From Clostridiales bacterium (GTDB lineage Bacteria > Bacillota > Clostridia > Peptostreptococcales > Anaerovoracaceae), in contig SVCU01000003.1 in NCBI GenBank assembly GCA_015058215.1, positions 105,896 through 169,895 on the forward strand: 64,000 bases of DNA, read 5' to 3'. The translations under genes and the position numbers were made by a program. The first letter of the stretch is position 1; every line of letters starts with the position of its first letter. Under the pieces are notes generated by a model. It saw nothing but the letters and a program-made list of their open reading frames with translations. It made no database searches and had not been told where the DNA came from. Positions 6,849 through 11,616 of this stretch are shown here, in pieces.

Positions 6849-7463
6849 TTACTTGCCAAGCTTTTCATTGATCAAATAAACGGTGATGGGCATGCCGGTG
6901 ATCTGGCGTTCCAGGATCAGAGTGGCATTGCACATCCGTGCGGGGGAGTCACAATTCATGCAGTGGCCCAGTTCTGCGCAGGGAGTCTTCTTGCCCAGCC
7001 GCTGTGCGTTGGGAGGGCAGGCCACGTTCTTGATGCGGATCAGACCGTCTTCATAATTGGCAACGATCTTGTTGATGCCGGTCATCAGATACAGACGCTT
7101 GTGACCGAACAGCATAGAGGACAGCCGGTTGCCGGTGCCGTCGATATTGATCATGCGGCCGTCTTCGGTGACGGCGTTATTGGAAGCGACATAGAGATCG
7201 GCCAGCATGGCTTCTCTCTGGCATTCGGGAACGGACTTTCCTTCGGGGCGGTCCCAATGCTGGTACACGGTGGTGCCGCGGGCTGCCAGGGCTTCGGGGA
7301 TTCCCATTTCACGGGCGGTGATGCTGCCGCCGATACCGACGGTATCCTTGGGATCGGTTTCTTCCAGGAAAGCCTTCAGGGCTTCTTCCTTGGTTTCAAA
7401 GCACTTAACGGTGAAGCCATTGCGTTCCAGAGCAGCGGCGGTCTTGAGAATTTTTTCCTGCAT
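6849..7463 (-). CDS. LUD-domain protein (DUF162, lactate-utilisation-like)
   Basis: The 204-residue protein carries the LUD fold seen in LutB/LutC. Signatures are VGIGGSITAREMGIPEAL (about residues 41-58), DLYVASNNAVTEDGRMINID (about 89-108) and a C-terminal Cys cluster GHCMNCDSPARMC (about 167-179). Stand-alone LUD proteins in Clostridia are mostly uncharacterised; a role in organic-acid redox metabolism is inferred from family name only. AGGAGG precedes the start. It is monocistronic between two terminator-like hairpins. Confidence 0.85.
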   Translation of the reverse strand: MQEKILKTAAALERNGFTVKCFETKEEALKAFLEETDPKDTVGIGGSITAREMGIPEALAARGTTVYQHWDRPEGKSVPECQREAMLADLYVASNNAVTEDGRMINIDGTGNRLSSMLFGHKRLYLMTGINKIVANYEDGLIRIKNVACPPNAQRLGKKTPCAELGHCMNCDSPARMCNATLILERQITGMPITVYLINEKLGK

Positions 7464-7602: not shown

Positions 7603-7620
7603 GCCGCCGCTTCCGGCGGC
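7603..7620 (-). terminator. Terminator after the HydE-like operon
   Basis: GCCGCCG / CGGCGGC (7603-7609 and 7614-7620) with a 4-nt loop lies 32 nt past the radical SAM stop codon. The T tract on the minus strand is interrupted (CTTCCTGTTT), so efficiency may be moderate. Confidence 0.5.
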
Positions 7621-7651: not shown

Positions 7652-8629
7652 CTAAAACTGCAGCTTGCTGCCGCTCTGCTCGGCCATGGCGCGGATGTGC
7701 TCCATCCCCAGCAGAATGCGGTTATCCACCACCCGGAACACGTCGCTGAGATCGTTGGGCAGCAGATCTGTATACATCATATCGGCACCGGCCCGCAGGG
7801 CTGCCAGATTGCCGGAGGGCGATGCAAACCCTTCCTTCAGGTTCTCGCCGGGCTGCCCTGCAGTGATGTAAACCTCAGGCAGCAGCACCCGGAGAAGGGA
7901 GATCTCCCGCAGATTCTTTTCGATGCTTCCCCTGCCCCCTTCTGCGGCCAGAGGAGTGCCCATGGCGGGCATATAGGGAACGATGGGAGCCCAGTCGATT
8001 TCCAGCTGCTTCATCCGCAGGATATCCTCCGCCAGTTCTTCTTCCGTCTGTCCGGGCCAGTCCACGATGTTGCCGCTGGCCAGTTCCAGACCCGCTTCTT
8101 TGATCCAGTGGATGCATTCCATGCGGTGCTTGAAATTGGTGGAGGGGTTCAGCCGGTTGAAGCTGGCTTCGTTCGACATTTCGAACTTGGCCACATAGCG
8201 GTCAGCCCCCGCTTCCTTCAGGATGCGGAACTGCTCTTTGGAAAATTCCCCGCAGGCCAGGCTCACATGGAGACCGGCTTCCTTGCAGGCCGCTACGATC
8301 TTCACCAGATTTTCGAAGCCGTACTTGGGGTCTTCCCCGGAGATCAGGAAAATCTTTTTGAACCCGTTGGCGGCTGCCTGCTGTGCGGCTGCGATCACCG
8401 TTTCCGGCTCCATGCGATACCGCTTCAAATTGGCATTGCCCGCCCGCATGCCGCAGTACAGGCACTGATTTTTACACACGTTGGTGAATCCCATCATGGA
8501 AACGGCCACCAACCGGTTATCGGTCACTTCGGCCCGGATGCGCCGGGCTTCTGCACCGATGGTATCATCGAATTCCTGCCAGGGAAGGCGCAGGGCCTCC
8601 AGGATCTCTTGCTTGCTGTTCAGATTCAT
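7652..8629 (-). CDS. HydE/BioB/PylB-like radical SAM protein
   Basis: The 325-residue protein has the radical SAM [4Fe-4S] motif CKNQCLYCG (C-x3-C-x2-C, about residues 52-60) followed by MRAGNANLKRYRM, the pattern of the HydE/PylB branch. Further family-like segments are FLISGEDP, EMSNEASFNRLNP, DWPGQTEEELAEDIL and PYMPAMGTPLA near the barrel end, and a BATS-type C-terminus. HydE acts in assembly of the [FeFe]-hydrogenase H-cluster; BioB and PylB make biotin and methylornithine. It is the last of five co-directional genes including an NMT1-type ABC transporter and a TM1266 regulator. The actual substrate is unknown. AGGAGA precedes the ATG. Confidence 0.8.
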   Translation of the reverse strand: MNLNSKQEILEALRLPWQEFDDTIGAEARRIRAEVTDNRLVAVSMMGFTNVCKNQCLYCGMRAGNANLKRYRMEPETVIAAAQQAAANGFKKIFLISGEDPKYGFENLVKIVAACKEAGLHVSLACGEFSKEQFRILKEAGADRYVAKFEMSNEASFNRLNPSTNFKHRMECIHWIKEAGLELASGNIVDWPGQTEEELAEDILRMKQLEIDWAPIVPYMPAMGTPLAAEGGRGSIEKNLREISLLRVLLPEVYITAGQPGENLKEGFASPSGNLAALRAGADMMYTDLLPNDLSDVFRVVDNRILLGMEHIRAMAEQSGSKLQF

Positions 8630-8638
8630 TTTGTTCTC

Positions 8639-9238
8639 CTAAGATTCCACGGCTGCCGCCTCGATGGGTTCCAGGCGGATCAGCTGTTCGGCCAGCGCAG
8701 AGGCTTCTTCGTCGTCGTGGGTGACGAAGATCACCGTCTTGCCGGCCACCGCTTCCTTTACGTATTCCAGAATGGTTTTCTTGGTTTCTTCATCCAGCCC
8801 CTTGAACGGCTCGTCCAGAAACAGCACCTTGCTTTCGGCCAGCATGGCCCGCACCAGCGCCACACGGCGGCGCATGCCGCCGGAAAGTTCCCTGGCACGC
8901 ACATTTCGACTGTCTCCCAGACCCACCCGGGAAAGATGTTCACCGGCTTCTGCAGCGGTCACCGTCTTTGCCGCCGTTGCCATTACATTGGTCAGGGCAC
9001 TGAACTCCTCAAAAAGGCGGTCCTCCTGGAACACGGCGCTCTTTTCCGCAGGCATTGCCTCCACAGAGCCGCTGTCCGCTTCCAGAAAACCCATCAGGAT
9101 GTTCAGCAGAGTGGTTTTTCCGCAGCCGGAAGGCCCCATGATGCAGGAGACCTTGCCTTCGGGGAAGGTCAGAGACAGATGATCCAGCACTTTTTTATCG
9201 CCAAAGCTTTTGCAAAGGTCATTTACACGGATATCCAC
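8639..9238 (-). CDS. ABC transporter ATPase, SsuB/TauB/NrtD type
   Basis: A compact 199-residue nucleotide-binding subunit: Walker A GPSGCGKTT (about residues 35-43), signature LSGGM (about 119-123), Walker B VLFLDEP (about 138-144) and the H-loop THDDEE. At 199 aa it is shorter than the usual 240-260 and ends soon after the H-loop. It begins with GTG one nt past the permease stop, with its GGGAGGGG ribosome site inside the permease end, so the two are coupled. Powers import with the two genes upstream. Confidence 0.9.
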   Translation of the reverse strand: MDIRVNDLCKSFGDKKVLDHLSLTFPEGKVSCIMGPSGCGKTTLLNILMGFLEADSGSVEAMPAEKSAVFQEDRLFEEFSALTNVMATAAKTVTAAEAGEHLSRVGLGDSRNVRARELSGGMRRRVALVRAMLAESKVLFLDEPFKGLDEETKKTILEYVKEAVAGKTVIFVTHDDEEASALAEQLIRLEPIEAAAVES

Positions 9239-9239
9239 G

Positions 9240-10034
9240 CTACTTCCCCTCCCTTCTCTGCAGCAGACGGGCCAGCAGCTTCACAAAGCCCTTTTCGAAC
9301 AGGATGCTGACCACCACGATCACCACGGTCCATGCGAAAAGGTCGCCGGACTCAAAGTGAACTTTTGCCATATAGAGTTTTTCGCCGATGGTGCCTTCGG
9401 GGATGCCGATGACTTCCGCGGCGATACCCGCCTTCCAGCCCAGACCGATGGAAACGCGGCAGGCGGAAAGGATATAGGGTTCCATCTGGGGCAGATAGAT
9501 GTAGCGCACCCTTTTGGTCCAGTTCATGCGGAACAGACTTGCCATCTCCAGAAGCTTGCTGTCGGTGCTCTTGATGCCCTGCAGCAGGTTGGTATAGATG
9601 ATGGGCAGTACCATCAGGAAGGAGATGAACACGGAAAGCTGCCGGGAATCCAGCCAGATCAGGCAGAGGATGATAAAGGATGCCACCGGCACCGCTTTTA
9701 CCGCCGCCATATAGGGCCAGACCAGCACTTCCGCCAGGCGGAAGCGGGCAGCCAGTACCGCCAGGACGGCACCTGTGACCACGCCCAGAAGGAACCCTTC
9801 CGCGATGCGCAGGAAGGAATAGGCCGCGGTGAGCCAGAAATCTCCGGTGAGCACCAGAGCGAAAAGACGCTCCACCACCACCACAGGGGAGACCAGCAGC
9901 AGTTTGTTCCCCACAGCCCATGCGGCGATCTGCCACAGGAGCAGTGCAGCCAGAACAGCCAGGATTCGTTCCCAAAGGGCGGCTTTTTCAGTTGTTTTAC
10001 CGGCCAGGACCGGCCGTTCTGTGCGATTGTGCAT
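9240..10034 (-). CDS. ABC transporter permease, SsuC/TauC type
   Basis: The 264-residue protein has about six hydrophobic segments and the binding-protein-dependent transport EAA-like loop (SLFRMNWTKRVRYIYLPQ, about residues 162-179). It belongs with transporters for sulfonates, nitrate, bicarbonate and thiamine precursors, so substrate cannot be fixed by similarity. GGAAAGGAAG precedes the ATG. Placed between the binding protein and ATPase genes in one operon. Confidence 0.9.
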   Translation of the reverse strand: MHNRTERPVLAGKTTEKAALWERILAVLAALLLWQIAAWAVGNKLLLVSPVVVVERLFALVLTGDFWLTAAYSFLRIAEGFLLGVVTGAVLAVLAARFRLAEVLVWPYMAAVKAVPVASFIILCLIWLDSRQLSVFISFLMVLPIIYTNLLQGIKSTDSKLLEMASLFRMNWTKRVRYIYLPQMEPYILSACRVSIGLGWKAGIAAEVIGIPEGTIGEKLYMAKVHFESGDLFAWTVVIVVVSILFEKGFVKLLARLLQRREGK

Positions 10035-10107
10035 GGTGCTTCCTTTCCCGTCCTCGCGATGGTGTGCAGCAAACCTTTACACCATGCGCGATTCGGAGAC
10101 ATTCGAT

Positions 10108-11109
10108 TTATTTGCTGATGAAGTAGAAGTCATCGCCGGGCAGCTTGCCGCCCACAGCTTTGGGGTTCTGATCGTACAGGGTCTGCAGGTAACCCGCAGC
10201 AGAGCCCTTCATTTCTTCGCCGTGCAGGCAGACGATGTTGCAGTAGGGAATGGCCTTTTCGGCAACAGCCGCGGCTACGATGCCGTTGGCTTCTACCAGC
10301 TTTGCACCGTCAGCGGGGTTGGCGTTGATCCATTCGGTGGAAGCTTCGTATTCTTCCAGGAACTTGGCCAGATGAGCAGGGTTTTCTTCCGCGAAGGCCT
10401 TGCGGACCACCAGCACGCCGGTGAGGAACTGGCTGCCGTTATCCAGAGCATCCCATTCAGCGGTCAGGTCCAGAGCTACGCGGAGCCCCTGCACCTTGCC
10501 CTGTGCTACGGTAACGAAGGGCTGGGGCAGCATGGCCACGCCGGTGTCGCTCTGGGAGAGCACTGCCACAACTTCGGTGGGTTCGGATTTCCATTCCATC
10601 TTGACGTCCTTATCGGGGTCCAGACCGGCCTGAGACAGCAGGTAGCGCAGTGCGTATTCGGGAGTGGAGCCCTTGCCGGTGGCGTAGATGGTCTTGCCCT
10701 TCAGATCCTTCAGATCCTGTACGGTTTCGCCGCCTTTTTCCACCACGTAGATGACGCCCAGAGTGTTTACAGCCAGGATCTGGACAGCGCCGTCGGTGTT
10801 GTTATACAGAACGGATGCCAGGTTGGCGGGAACTGCGGCGATATCCAGCTCGCCCTTGATCAGCTTGGGAGTGATCTCGTCGGCGGCTGCGCCCATGGTG
10901 AATTCGTAGGTATTGAACGTCTTGCCCTGTGCTGCATCATCCAGCAGCTTTACCATACCCATGGTGGTGGGGCCCTTCAGACCGGCCAGACGGATGGTCA
11001 TGCCTTCTTCGGGTTCCTTGGATGCGGGCTGGCAGCCGGTGAAGGCCAGAGCGGCCAGAACCAGCACCATGGCCAGAGCGACGATTTGAGTCAGTTTTTT
11101 GCTTTTCAT
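10108..11109 (-). CDS. NMT1/SsuA-like substrate-binding lipoprotein
   Basis: The 333-residue protein starts with a lipoprotein signal peptide (hydrophobic stretch then LAFTGC, lipidated Cys at about residue 26). The mature part is a periplasmic-binding-fold of the NMT1/THI5 type, with KGELDIAAVPANLASVL and LKGKTIYATGKGSTPEYALRY typical of that group. The C-terminal VGGKLPGDDFYF is a recognisable lineage feature. Ligand unknown; linkage to a HydE-like radical SAM enzyme suggests a cofactor precursor, but this is inference. Confidence 0.87.
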   Translation of the reverse strand: MKSKKLTQIVALAMVLVLAALAFTGCQPASKEPEEGMTIRLAGLKGPTTMGMVKLLDDAAQGKTFNTYEFTMGAAADEITPKLIKGELDIAAVPANLASVLYNNTDGAVQILAVNTLGVIYVVEKGGETVQDLKDLKGKTIYATGKGSTPEYALRYLLSQAGLDPDKDVKMEWKSEPTEVVAVLSQSDTGVAMLPQPFVTVAQGKVQGLRVALDLTAEWDALDNGSQFLTGVLVVRKAFAEENPAHLAKFLEEYEASTEWINANPADGAKLVEANGIVAAAVAEKAIPYCNIVCLHGEEMKGSAAGYLQTLYDQNPKAVGGKLPGDDFYFISK

Positions 11110-11187
11110 TCTAGTACCTCTTTCTTTTTTCCTCGGCTCAGGTTCCTGTCTGCGGGCGCAGCCGTTCTGCCGCTCCGCAGCCTCCCC

Positions 11188-11439
11188 TTATGCCCCGGTT
11201 TTGGATGTCACGGTCTTGGTGGTGACTCCTTTTATCATGCCCAGTTTCCCGGAAAGGGAGCTTGTGATATCCGCAGGTGCATCCAGAACCACGCAGATGA
11301 TGGCGATGCCTCTCTCTTTATAGGGCAGGCCCATGCGGCCGATGATATAGCCGCCGAAGAGATGCAGAAGCGCATTGACCTGCTCTGCCGCATTGGGATC
11401 TTCCACGATGATGCTGATGATGGATACTCTGTTTTCCAT
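11188..11439 (-). CDS. TM1266-family putative iron-only hydrogenase system regulator
   Basis: The 83-residue ACT-like/NikR-C-like protein resembles the TM1266 family (MENRVSIISIIVED..., then GGYIIGRMGLPYKERGIAII), genes commonly found beside the hydE/F/G maturation set. I start at 11439 behind AAGGAGAG; the longer frame to 11556 runs through the attenuator hairpin and is rejected. The predicted fold has two beta-alpha-beta units and no DNA-binding domain. It leads the ABC/radical SAM operon. The regulatory mechanism of the family is not established as far as I know. Confidence 0.82.
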   Translation of the reverse strand: MENRVSIISIIVEDPNAAEQVNALLHLFGGYIIGRMGLPYKERGIAIICVVLDAPADITSSLSGKLGMIKGVTTKTVTSKTGA

Positions 11440-11474: not shown

Positions 11475-11580
11475 AAAAAATCCGCGCCGGGAAGCGCGGA
11501 TCGAAGTTACGGCAGTTCACTTGTTTCCGCCTTCCCTGCCGGGACGAACCCAGCACGTCAGGACGTTGCAGTTATTTGAT
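11475..11580 (-). promoter_or_regulatory. Structured 5' leader with intrinsic attenuator (candidate riboswitch)
   Basis: From the predicted start near 11580 the leader contains a small ACGT/ACGT hairpin (11555-11566), a 7-bp hairpin TGCTGGG/CCCGGCA (11555-11549 with 11543-11537), a 5-bp stem GGCGG/CTGCC (11531-11527 with 11515-11511), and a strong terminator ATCCGCGC/GCGCGGAT (11501-11494 with 11487-11480) followed by six T. GCGGA at 11530-11526 can pair with TCCGC at 11500-11496, giving an antiterminator that would break the terminator. It matches no riboswitch consensus I know (TPP, B12, SAM, FMN, THF, ZTP and others compared from memory). Confidence 0.65.
11480..11501 (-). terminator. Attenuator terminator upstream of the TM1266 gene
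   Basis: An 8-bp perfect GC-rich stem with a TTCCCG loop and six T on the minus strand lies about 40 nt before the start codon and inside the leader. A terminator in this place, before the first gene of an operon, implies conditional readthrough. Confidence 0.8.
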
Positions 11581-11586
11581 ACAAAC

Positions 11587-11616
11587 AGTATATACCACAA
11601 AGGCGGCCTCTGTAAA
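11587..11616 (-). promoter_or_regulatory. Probable promoter of the TM1266/ABC/HydE-like operon
   Basis: TTTACA (11616-11611), an 18-bp spacer and TATACT (11592-11587) lie on the minus strand. The -35 box falls in the loop of the hairpin that ends the upstream AEC gene. Confidence 0.55.

Follow-up and report, generated by a model that had tools for sequence, protein, structure and literature searches.

A conserved ABC importer–radical SAM operon as a probable H-cluster maturation module in bacteria lacking HydG

Introduction

The closest described system is the HydEFG pathway, which assembles the H-cluster of [FeFe]-hydrogenases. As set out in PMC12752695, HydG converts tyrosine to CO and CN− and assembles a mononuclear Fe(CO)2(CN)(Cys) unit; HydE then reduces this unit and is held to form a diiron product, and HydF completes the cluster together with the glycine cleavage system. 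PMC3226654 mentions a few species that carry [FeFe]-hydrogenase genes without the three maturases, and PMC9431212 recounts about 1% activation, attributed to trace diatomics, by HydE and HydF without HydG. Here, we describe a five-gene operon at positions 7652–11439 of a 64,000-nt stretch of a Clostridiales bacterium genome (GCA_015058215.1, contig SVCU01000003.1; the whole stretch is hereafter the window), which combines a TM1266-family protein, an ATP-binding cassette (ABC) importer, and a HydE-like radical S-adenosylmethionine enzyme (rSAM).

We consider it probable, at roughly 0.6, that this operon is an H-cluster maturation module for bacteria that lack HydG and that it imports a precursor, whose nature we infer. 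What we observe is the gene order and its conservation, the co-occurrence of the genes, the separate clade of the enzyme, and a shared RNA leader; the odds that we assign derive from gene neighborhood and co-occurrence and hence are unchanged by the mixed covariation of the RNA. Among the papers listed in a literature search covering titles and the starts of abstracts, none described this operon, a hyd riboswitch, the combination of a HydG-less module with two alternative importers and a common RNA leader, or a mechanism for hydrogenase-bearing species without the three maturases.

Results

Gene order in the window and in relatives

All five open reading frames of 7652–11439 lie on the minus strand, with intergenic gaps of 78, 73, 1, and 9 nt. 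Families were assigned by profile searches against Pfam and the curated cut-offs of NCBIfam. The first gene (11188–11439) encodes an 83-aa TM1266-family protein (TIGR03959, 107.8 bits against a cut-off of 60.8; PF21699) and is followed by genes for a lipoprotein substrate-binding protein (SBP) of the NMT1/SsuA-like type (10108–11109; PF13379, NMT1_2), an ABC permease (9240–10034; PF00528, BPD_transp_1), a short ABC ATPase of 199 aa with a GTG start (8639–9238; PF00005, ABC_tran), and the 325-aa rSAM (7652–8629; Radical_SAM). The co-directional layout and these identities had been proposed in the original prediction, and both are borne out here.

A protein search gave 650 relatives of the rSAM at E ≤ 1e-30, of which the best 120 were listed, and gene neighborhoods were taken from the best 80 of 550 relatives in named genomes. 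Within this set, 58 loci (L060–L118 without L115) form a close clade at 47–62% identity, which by title is mostly Clostridia and includes three spirochaete metagenome-assembled genomes (MAGs). The rSAM of L115 (Candidatus Latescibacterota) is at 42% identity and the remaining 21 relatives are at 33–40%. The complete SBP–permease–ATPase–rSAM order recurs in 30/58 clade loci, which argues that the arrangement is not due to chance, and we reject chance adjacency on this ground; nor is the adjacency of the ABC genes confined to one strain. The order is cut by a contig end in two further loci and reduced to SBP–rSAM in six, while the rSAM stands alone in 17 and is partial or broken in three. TM1266 is the first gene in eight.

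HydF lies directly 3′ of the rSAM in 16/58 clade loci, with its start within 64 bp in 15 and 333 bp away, behind TM1266, in L109; in L107, the HydF start is visible before the contig ends. Three of these adjacent HydF proteins were run against NCBIfam, and all pass the HydF cut-off (516–567 bits). In L096, L104, and L109, an S component of an energy-coupling factor (ECF) transporter (PF12822 over cut-off) is encoded directly 5′ of the rSAM, giving in L109 the order ECF-S, rSAM, TM1266, HydF. That one enzyme is accompanied by importers of two unrelated kinds points to an imported substrate. TM1266–SBP–permease–ATPase also occurs without the rSAM, and with the RNA leader described below, in six further loci (L260–L265). 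HydG differs among the genomes of these six: it is present in G394, with no match in G451, G321, G255, G428, and G121. The HydF adjacency in relatives, like the RNA leader and terminator before TM1266, goes beyond what the original prediction had described.

A radical SAM clade apart from HydE

The window rSAM carries the C-x3-C-x2-C motif that had been read from it, as CKNQCLYC, and C52, C56, and C59 are invariant across the aligned clade. Its HydE-like body was also recognized correctly: TIGR03956 (HydE) is the best model at 190.4 bits, under the curated cut-off of 254.6. The scores against PylB (TIGR03910, 125.6 versus 348.2) and BioB (TIGR00433, 101.4 versus 225) likewise fall below their cut-offs, and we reject both identities. 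The HydE cut-off is passed by all five that were tested of the 21 remoter relatives at 33–40% identity, and the remoter relatives placed in our tree all group with HydE.

The maximum-likelihood tree comprises 87 rows and samples every second clade row; L030, L037, L054, and L127 were left out, and L053 had no row. The clade is resolved as monophyletic and apart from canonical HydE (support 99/96; 98% of bootstrap trees), with L115 as its sister (99/95), so that the window rSAM does not fall inside canonical HydE. Support is weak for the fork with the HydE rows (79/79) and for the relation to PylB.

We compared the clade with 47 HydE rows taken as canonical, using the numbering of the T. maritima (Tm) enzyme. 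The clade substitutions include T134→S, R159→K, M224→W, Y303→F, and K309→R, and S136 is also altered. R155, invariant in the canonical rows, is altered in 95% of the clade (to E) and retained as R in the window protein, while T268/T269 is mostly QQ in the clade and GQ in the window, accompanied by a PG insertion. Some of the altered residues are ones that we take to line the HydE cavity. These changes suggest a substrate differing from that of HydE. In fold, the rSAM remains closest to HydE: an AlphaFold2 (AF2) model (predicted local distance difference test score, pLDDT, 91) has HydE 3iiz as its nearest entry in the PDB (template modeling score, TM, 0.90; 33% identity), and HydE entries fill the ten top places among its structural matches, with PylB, BioB, ThiH, and HydG ranking below them. 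Assignment as a plain HydE is rejected on the cut-off, the tree position, and the altered residues.

Maturases and hydrogenases in clade genomes

Genome searches covered the genomes of 49/58 clade loci, with that of L115 (G110) as the outgroup; the loci left out were L065, L072, L083, L097, L098, L105, and L116–L118. HydG is over its cut-off in 5/49 clade genomes and canonical HydE in exactly the same five, while HydF is over cut-off in 24/49, these five included. An [FeFe]-hydrogenase domain is present at E ≤ 1e-20 in 48/49. For 19 HydG-less clade genomes, the main hydrogenase region was fetched, and all three H-cluster motifs are found in 17 and two motifs in the other 2; a twentieth fetched region (G061 C1, 1 kb) is filler rather than the hydrogenase place. 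Neobittarella massiliensis (G087) and Evtepia gabavorous (G105) both carry HydF and have no HydG over cut-off.

Of 393 genomes searched from the window's own class, 5 encode the clade rSAM, 92 a member of the wider SBP family, and 241 a HydG over cut-off. HydG is depleted in the clade genomes (5/49) when compared to own-class genomes without the clade rSAM (240/388; Fisher 1.7e-12). The background for this comparison, and for the SBP statistics below, is a single class, whereas the 49 clade genomes come from more than one; the two sets have two clade genomes in common.

The window itself lies on contig C8; the assembly totals 1.73 Mb and is 95.4% complete. This genome has six [FeFe]-hydrogenase domain matches, including a 584-aa HydA with all three H-cluster motifs (TSCSPGW, MPCTAKKFE, and EIMACPGGCVYG). 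No HydE is over cut-off in it, the best match being the window rSAM at 191 bits, nor is any HydF at this completeness, nor any HydG; the HydG model has two matches, and we interpret the better one (E 4.5e-50) as a ThiH-type gene within a thi operon on C9. The search for hydF and hydG elsewhere in the genome that the original prediction had called for thus gives neither over cut-off, yet [FeFe]-hydrogenases are present. An assembly gap behind the missing HydG and HydF is possible for this assembly, but 44/49 clade genomes are also without HydG, and we reject it as the explanation.

Contigs C11 and C20 of the same genome (L018, L020) encode several further [FeFe]-hydrogenase-domain proteins. One on C11, of 556 aa and followed by a SpoIIE-type phosphatase-domain protein, is possibly a sensory hydrogenase. 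The outgroup genome G110 (6.1 Mb), which holds the sister of the clade rSAM, has four [FeFe]-hydrogenase-domain matches; none of HydF, HydG, and canonical HydE reaches its cut-off there, and the SBP has no match. Another HydG-less pattern appears in G047, from the search for relatives, with two HydE over cut-off, no HydG over cut-off (best E 8e-18), and a member of the SBP family.

The importer and its SBP family

The window SBP shares 58–66% identity with 25/28 other aligned SBPs. Its AF2 model (pLDDT 93) is nearest in the PDB to 3hn0, whose function is unnamed, and to TauA, PqqT, and SsuA, and the fold is also Thi5-like; this search yields a fold class and indicates no ligand. The SBP reaches no NCBIfam cut-off, those for SsuA_fam (74.6 versus 163.5) and the TauA type (27.9 versus 304.25) included, and for the permease and ATPase, none of the NCBIfam models shown reaches its cut-off.

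A member of the SBP family is found in 47/49 clade genomes, the two without it being G080 and G100 (enrichment 7e-25, a figure that includes loci with an adjacent SBP). Where the rSAM stands alone, the SBP is still present in 14/16 genomes (1.4e-7 versus background). In one of these 14, G082, the SBP gene is seemingly interrupted, with one part at the end of the rSAM contig and the rest on another; the remaining genomes encode it at a separate place, and most of the places viewed show an SBP–permease–ATPase set. Members of the wider SBP family are also found where the rSAM is absent, and a transporter exclusive to the rSAM is therefore rejected. A comparison within one genus (g65) finds HydG in 2/7 SBP-positive versus 4/4 SBP-negative genomes (p 0.06), on which we do not rely.

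SBP–permease–ATPase sets away from the rSAM (L236, L241, L246, and others) often follow or adjoin a gene encoding a cyclic-nucleotide-binding domain, as checked in three cases. N. massiliensis has a second, remoter SBP paralogue (G087:C10, L249) with no permease or ATPase recognized beside it.

RNA leader, attenuator, and flanking features

All nine TM1266-first clade operons, the window included, start with a conserved hairpin of about 52 nt, followed in most by a terminator. In the window, this leader is at 11520–11570 on the minus strand (CCT-GA-C-hairpin-G-AA-AGG), and we regard it as a candidate aptamer. It precedes TM1266 in 15 loci (the window, L060–L064, L068, L079, L080, and L260–L265) with the consensus CCTGAC-N-CATTTGGG-TACGT-CCCGGATG-GAAAGG. 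A covariance model, R1, was trained on these 15 and recovers all of them, that is, its own training set (window, 50.0 bits). Its match outside the training set is a single place in G022 (L025/L300; L300:1788–1840, plus strand; 26.9 bits, E about 1e-5 to 2e-5), where leader and terminator lie directly 5′ of a canonical hydE (576 bits), which is followed by hydG (931 bits). With no TM1266 in between, this placement indicates that the RNA can occur independently of TM1266. Searches for the leader in the other clade loci, in the fetched hydrogenase regions of the window's own genome, and in the SBP operons without TM1266 that were covered gave no match.

Covariation gives a mixed picture. Across the 16 leaders, 94.7% of cells are paired, versus at most 61.6% when the structure is slid, and, in an alignment fitted to the model, 0/500 shuffles reach the covariation score. 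The 3′ side of the leader is predicted to pair with the 5′ arm of the downstream terminator. In the window, the intrinsic terminator (ATCCGCGCTTCCCGGCGCGGAT plus a T-run; 11475–11501, minus strand) competes with such a pairing of the leader 3′ side (about 11527–11536), with predicted energies of −14.5 kcal/mol for the terminator hairpin and −20.9 kcal/mol for the competing duplex, and 0/300 tail shuffles are as low. A competing duplex as strong arises in at most 18/300 tail shuffles for 14/16 leaders, those of L068 (54) and L079 (211) being weak, and its mean is −15.1 kcal/mol with the leaders' own tails, −12.7 with swapped tails, and −9.6 with shuffled ones. Our script found no clean terminator in L079 and L080, and in L261 the chosen hairpin spans the T-run. 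The leader is thus predicted to have what marks a riboswitch expression platform, a terminator set against an alternative pairing. At Rfam gathering scores, there is no match to the leader in the window or in eight other loci, where an unrelated T-box is the only match; the leaders of L061–L063, L068, L080, L261, and L300 were outside this search. A known Rfam family is rejected for the loci searched; the window and L262 gave weak E-value hits, which we judge to be chance.

Just 5′ of the leader is a promoter-like site, TTTACA-18-TATACT (11587–11616, minus strand; 10/12 matches in a consensus scan), where the three such sites in the region are no excess over the 2.8 in shuffles. The terminator at 11475–11501 is not among the consensus-scan sites. 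At the other end, a terminator-like hairpin 3′ of the rSAM gene (7603–7620, minus strand), which would end the operon, comes from the scan and shows no excess over shuffles. It lies in the 188-nt gap before a LUD-domain gene (6849–7463, minus strand), whose protein, used as a query across the 80 loci, had no reported match next to the rSAM.

Discussion

Proposed route

Gene order, co-occurrence, and the ECF alternative suggest that the SBP would capture a small precursor and the ABC importer would bring it in. Judging from fold and context, the rSAM would then perform a HydE-type radical step on this precursor, a step that would replace the route starting with the tyrosine-derived Fe(CO)2(CN) unit of HydG. 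Where HydF is encoded (24/49 genomes), it may take the product of the rSAM, as their adjacency suggests. The architecture of the leader is consistent with transcription being halted when the ligand is plentiful, and TM1266 is perhaps a second layer of control. The substrate to which we would commit is a ready-made CO/CN-bearing iron unit, or a close derivative, shed by HydG-positive neighbors.

The original prediction had suggested that the transporter feeds a HydE-like enzyme and had doubted that the pathway is related to hydrogenase. The first idea is strengthened by the conserved block and the separate clade. The doubt has been largely answered by the HydF genes 3′ of the rSAM, by the hydrogenase domains in nearly all clade genomes, and by the leader before one hydE–hydG operon. 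A broader picture is possible, though doubtful: bacteria that have lost HydG would import a community-released CO/CN-ligated iron unit or near-finished diiron precursor, much as a vitamin, via a dedicated ABC or ECF importer; a re-tooled HydE would finish it; and a new riboswitch class would sense an H-cluster intermediate and control both this route and the hydE–hydG route of relatives.

Several observations weigh against a maturation module of this kind. In the window protein and its clade, R54, E58, Q107, R159, T268, T269, Y303, Y306, and K309, all invariant in canonical HydE, are altered, and the clade rSAM may as a result not act on HydE's own substrate. HydF over cut-off was not found in 25/49 clade genomes, nor in the window's own, and these genomes would require a precursor nearer the finished diiron unit or another carrier. 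Five clade genomes hold the clade rSAM and HydG together, two of them (G080 and G100) without the SBP. Among the 49, G108 has no hydrogenase domain match at E ≤ 1e-20, and G061 has a single weak one. By hand count, 46 of the 92 own-class genomes with the wider SBP family are HydG-positive, and most genomes examined are MAGs. As for the RNA, the leader heads only 9/59 clade loci, the window counted, and it is found in 1/20 canonical hyd regions and not in the other 19, several of the regions having little upstream DNA. Two-sided changes occur in three pairs only, as many as arise in 9/500 shuffles and in three of the six slid structures; further pair types are no more numerous than in shuffles; and in an unfitted alignment, two-sided changes fall to two pairs, reached by 143/500 shuffles.

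Alternative explanations

The altered residues are shared ground for two other readings. The importer might bring in an organic CO/CN donor, amino-acid- or vitamin-like, that the rSAM cleaves, so that it replaces HydG rather than HydE. HydG and canonical HydE are missing together, which would allow one enzyme to replace both, and the SBP fold resembles those of the small-anion and vitamin binders TauA, SsuA, Thi5, and PqqT; we nonetheless hold this to be unlikely, as the ten best structural matches of the rSAM are HydE rather than HydG and the protein, at 325 aa, is shorter than the HydG model (470 positions). The same residue changes could instead reflect an enzyme that makes or salvages a different cofactor and is linked to hydrogenase indirectly, in keeping with the half of clade genomes without HydF, the many unrelated settings of the wider SBP family, and the naming of the HydE relative PylB as a methylornithine synthase. 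Against such a role, which we rate as rather improbable, stand HydF directly 3′ of the rSAM, the association with TM1266, and the leader shared with hydE–hydG.

It is least credible to us, and very improbable, that these genes are an auxiliary scavenging route beside a diverged, unrecognized HydG that still makes the ligands. Both systems do occur together in the five HydG-positive clade genomes, and in PMC9431212, hydG was not detected in 5/8 acetogens and the authors weigh motif divergence. The HydG model, however, reaches its cut-off in 241/393 genomes of the class, and across the 44 clade genomes without HydG it always scores below 180 bits, with the top match in most of them at the clade rSAM itself.

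Implications and comparison with known systems

An H-cluster maturation module in this operon would be a concrete and testable answer, in cultured bacteria, to how some hydrogenase hosts do without maturases. If this is true, members of anaerobic communities share an iron–carbonyl–cyanide cofactor or its precursor as a common good, which would have a bearing on the hydrogen economy of gut and rumen. The leader would serve as a genetically encoded sensor of an H-cluster intermediate, and a natural variant for dissecting HydE chemistry would be at hand in the rSAM clade.

When compared to transcription-attenuating riboswitches, the candidate leader likewise combines a small conserved hairpin with a downstream terminator that an alternative pairing would compete with; it differs in having no Rfam match in the tested loci. 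The window importer resembles SsuABC, TauABC, and Thi5-type importers in gene set and SBP fold but is associated with a radical SAM enzyme and with TM1266, and the ECF parts of clade loci share PF12822 with known ECF S components. With HydE (3iiz, 7o1o), the rSAM shares the fold, the C-x3-C-x2-C motif and its surround, and a GEDP motif, and its relatives sit beside HydF and TM1266; unlike HydE, it scores under the family cut-off, forms its own clade with altered residues and a PG insertion, and occurs without HydG in 44/49 genomes. As in the HydEFG pathway, the hosts bear hydrogenases and HydF is kept in 24/49 clade genomes, whereas HydG over cut-off is missing from 44/49, and the rSAM gene adjoins an ABC importer in 30/58 loci and an ECF part in 3.

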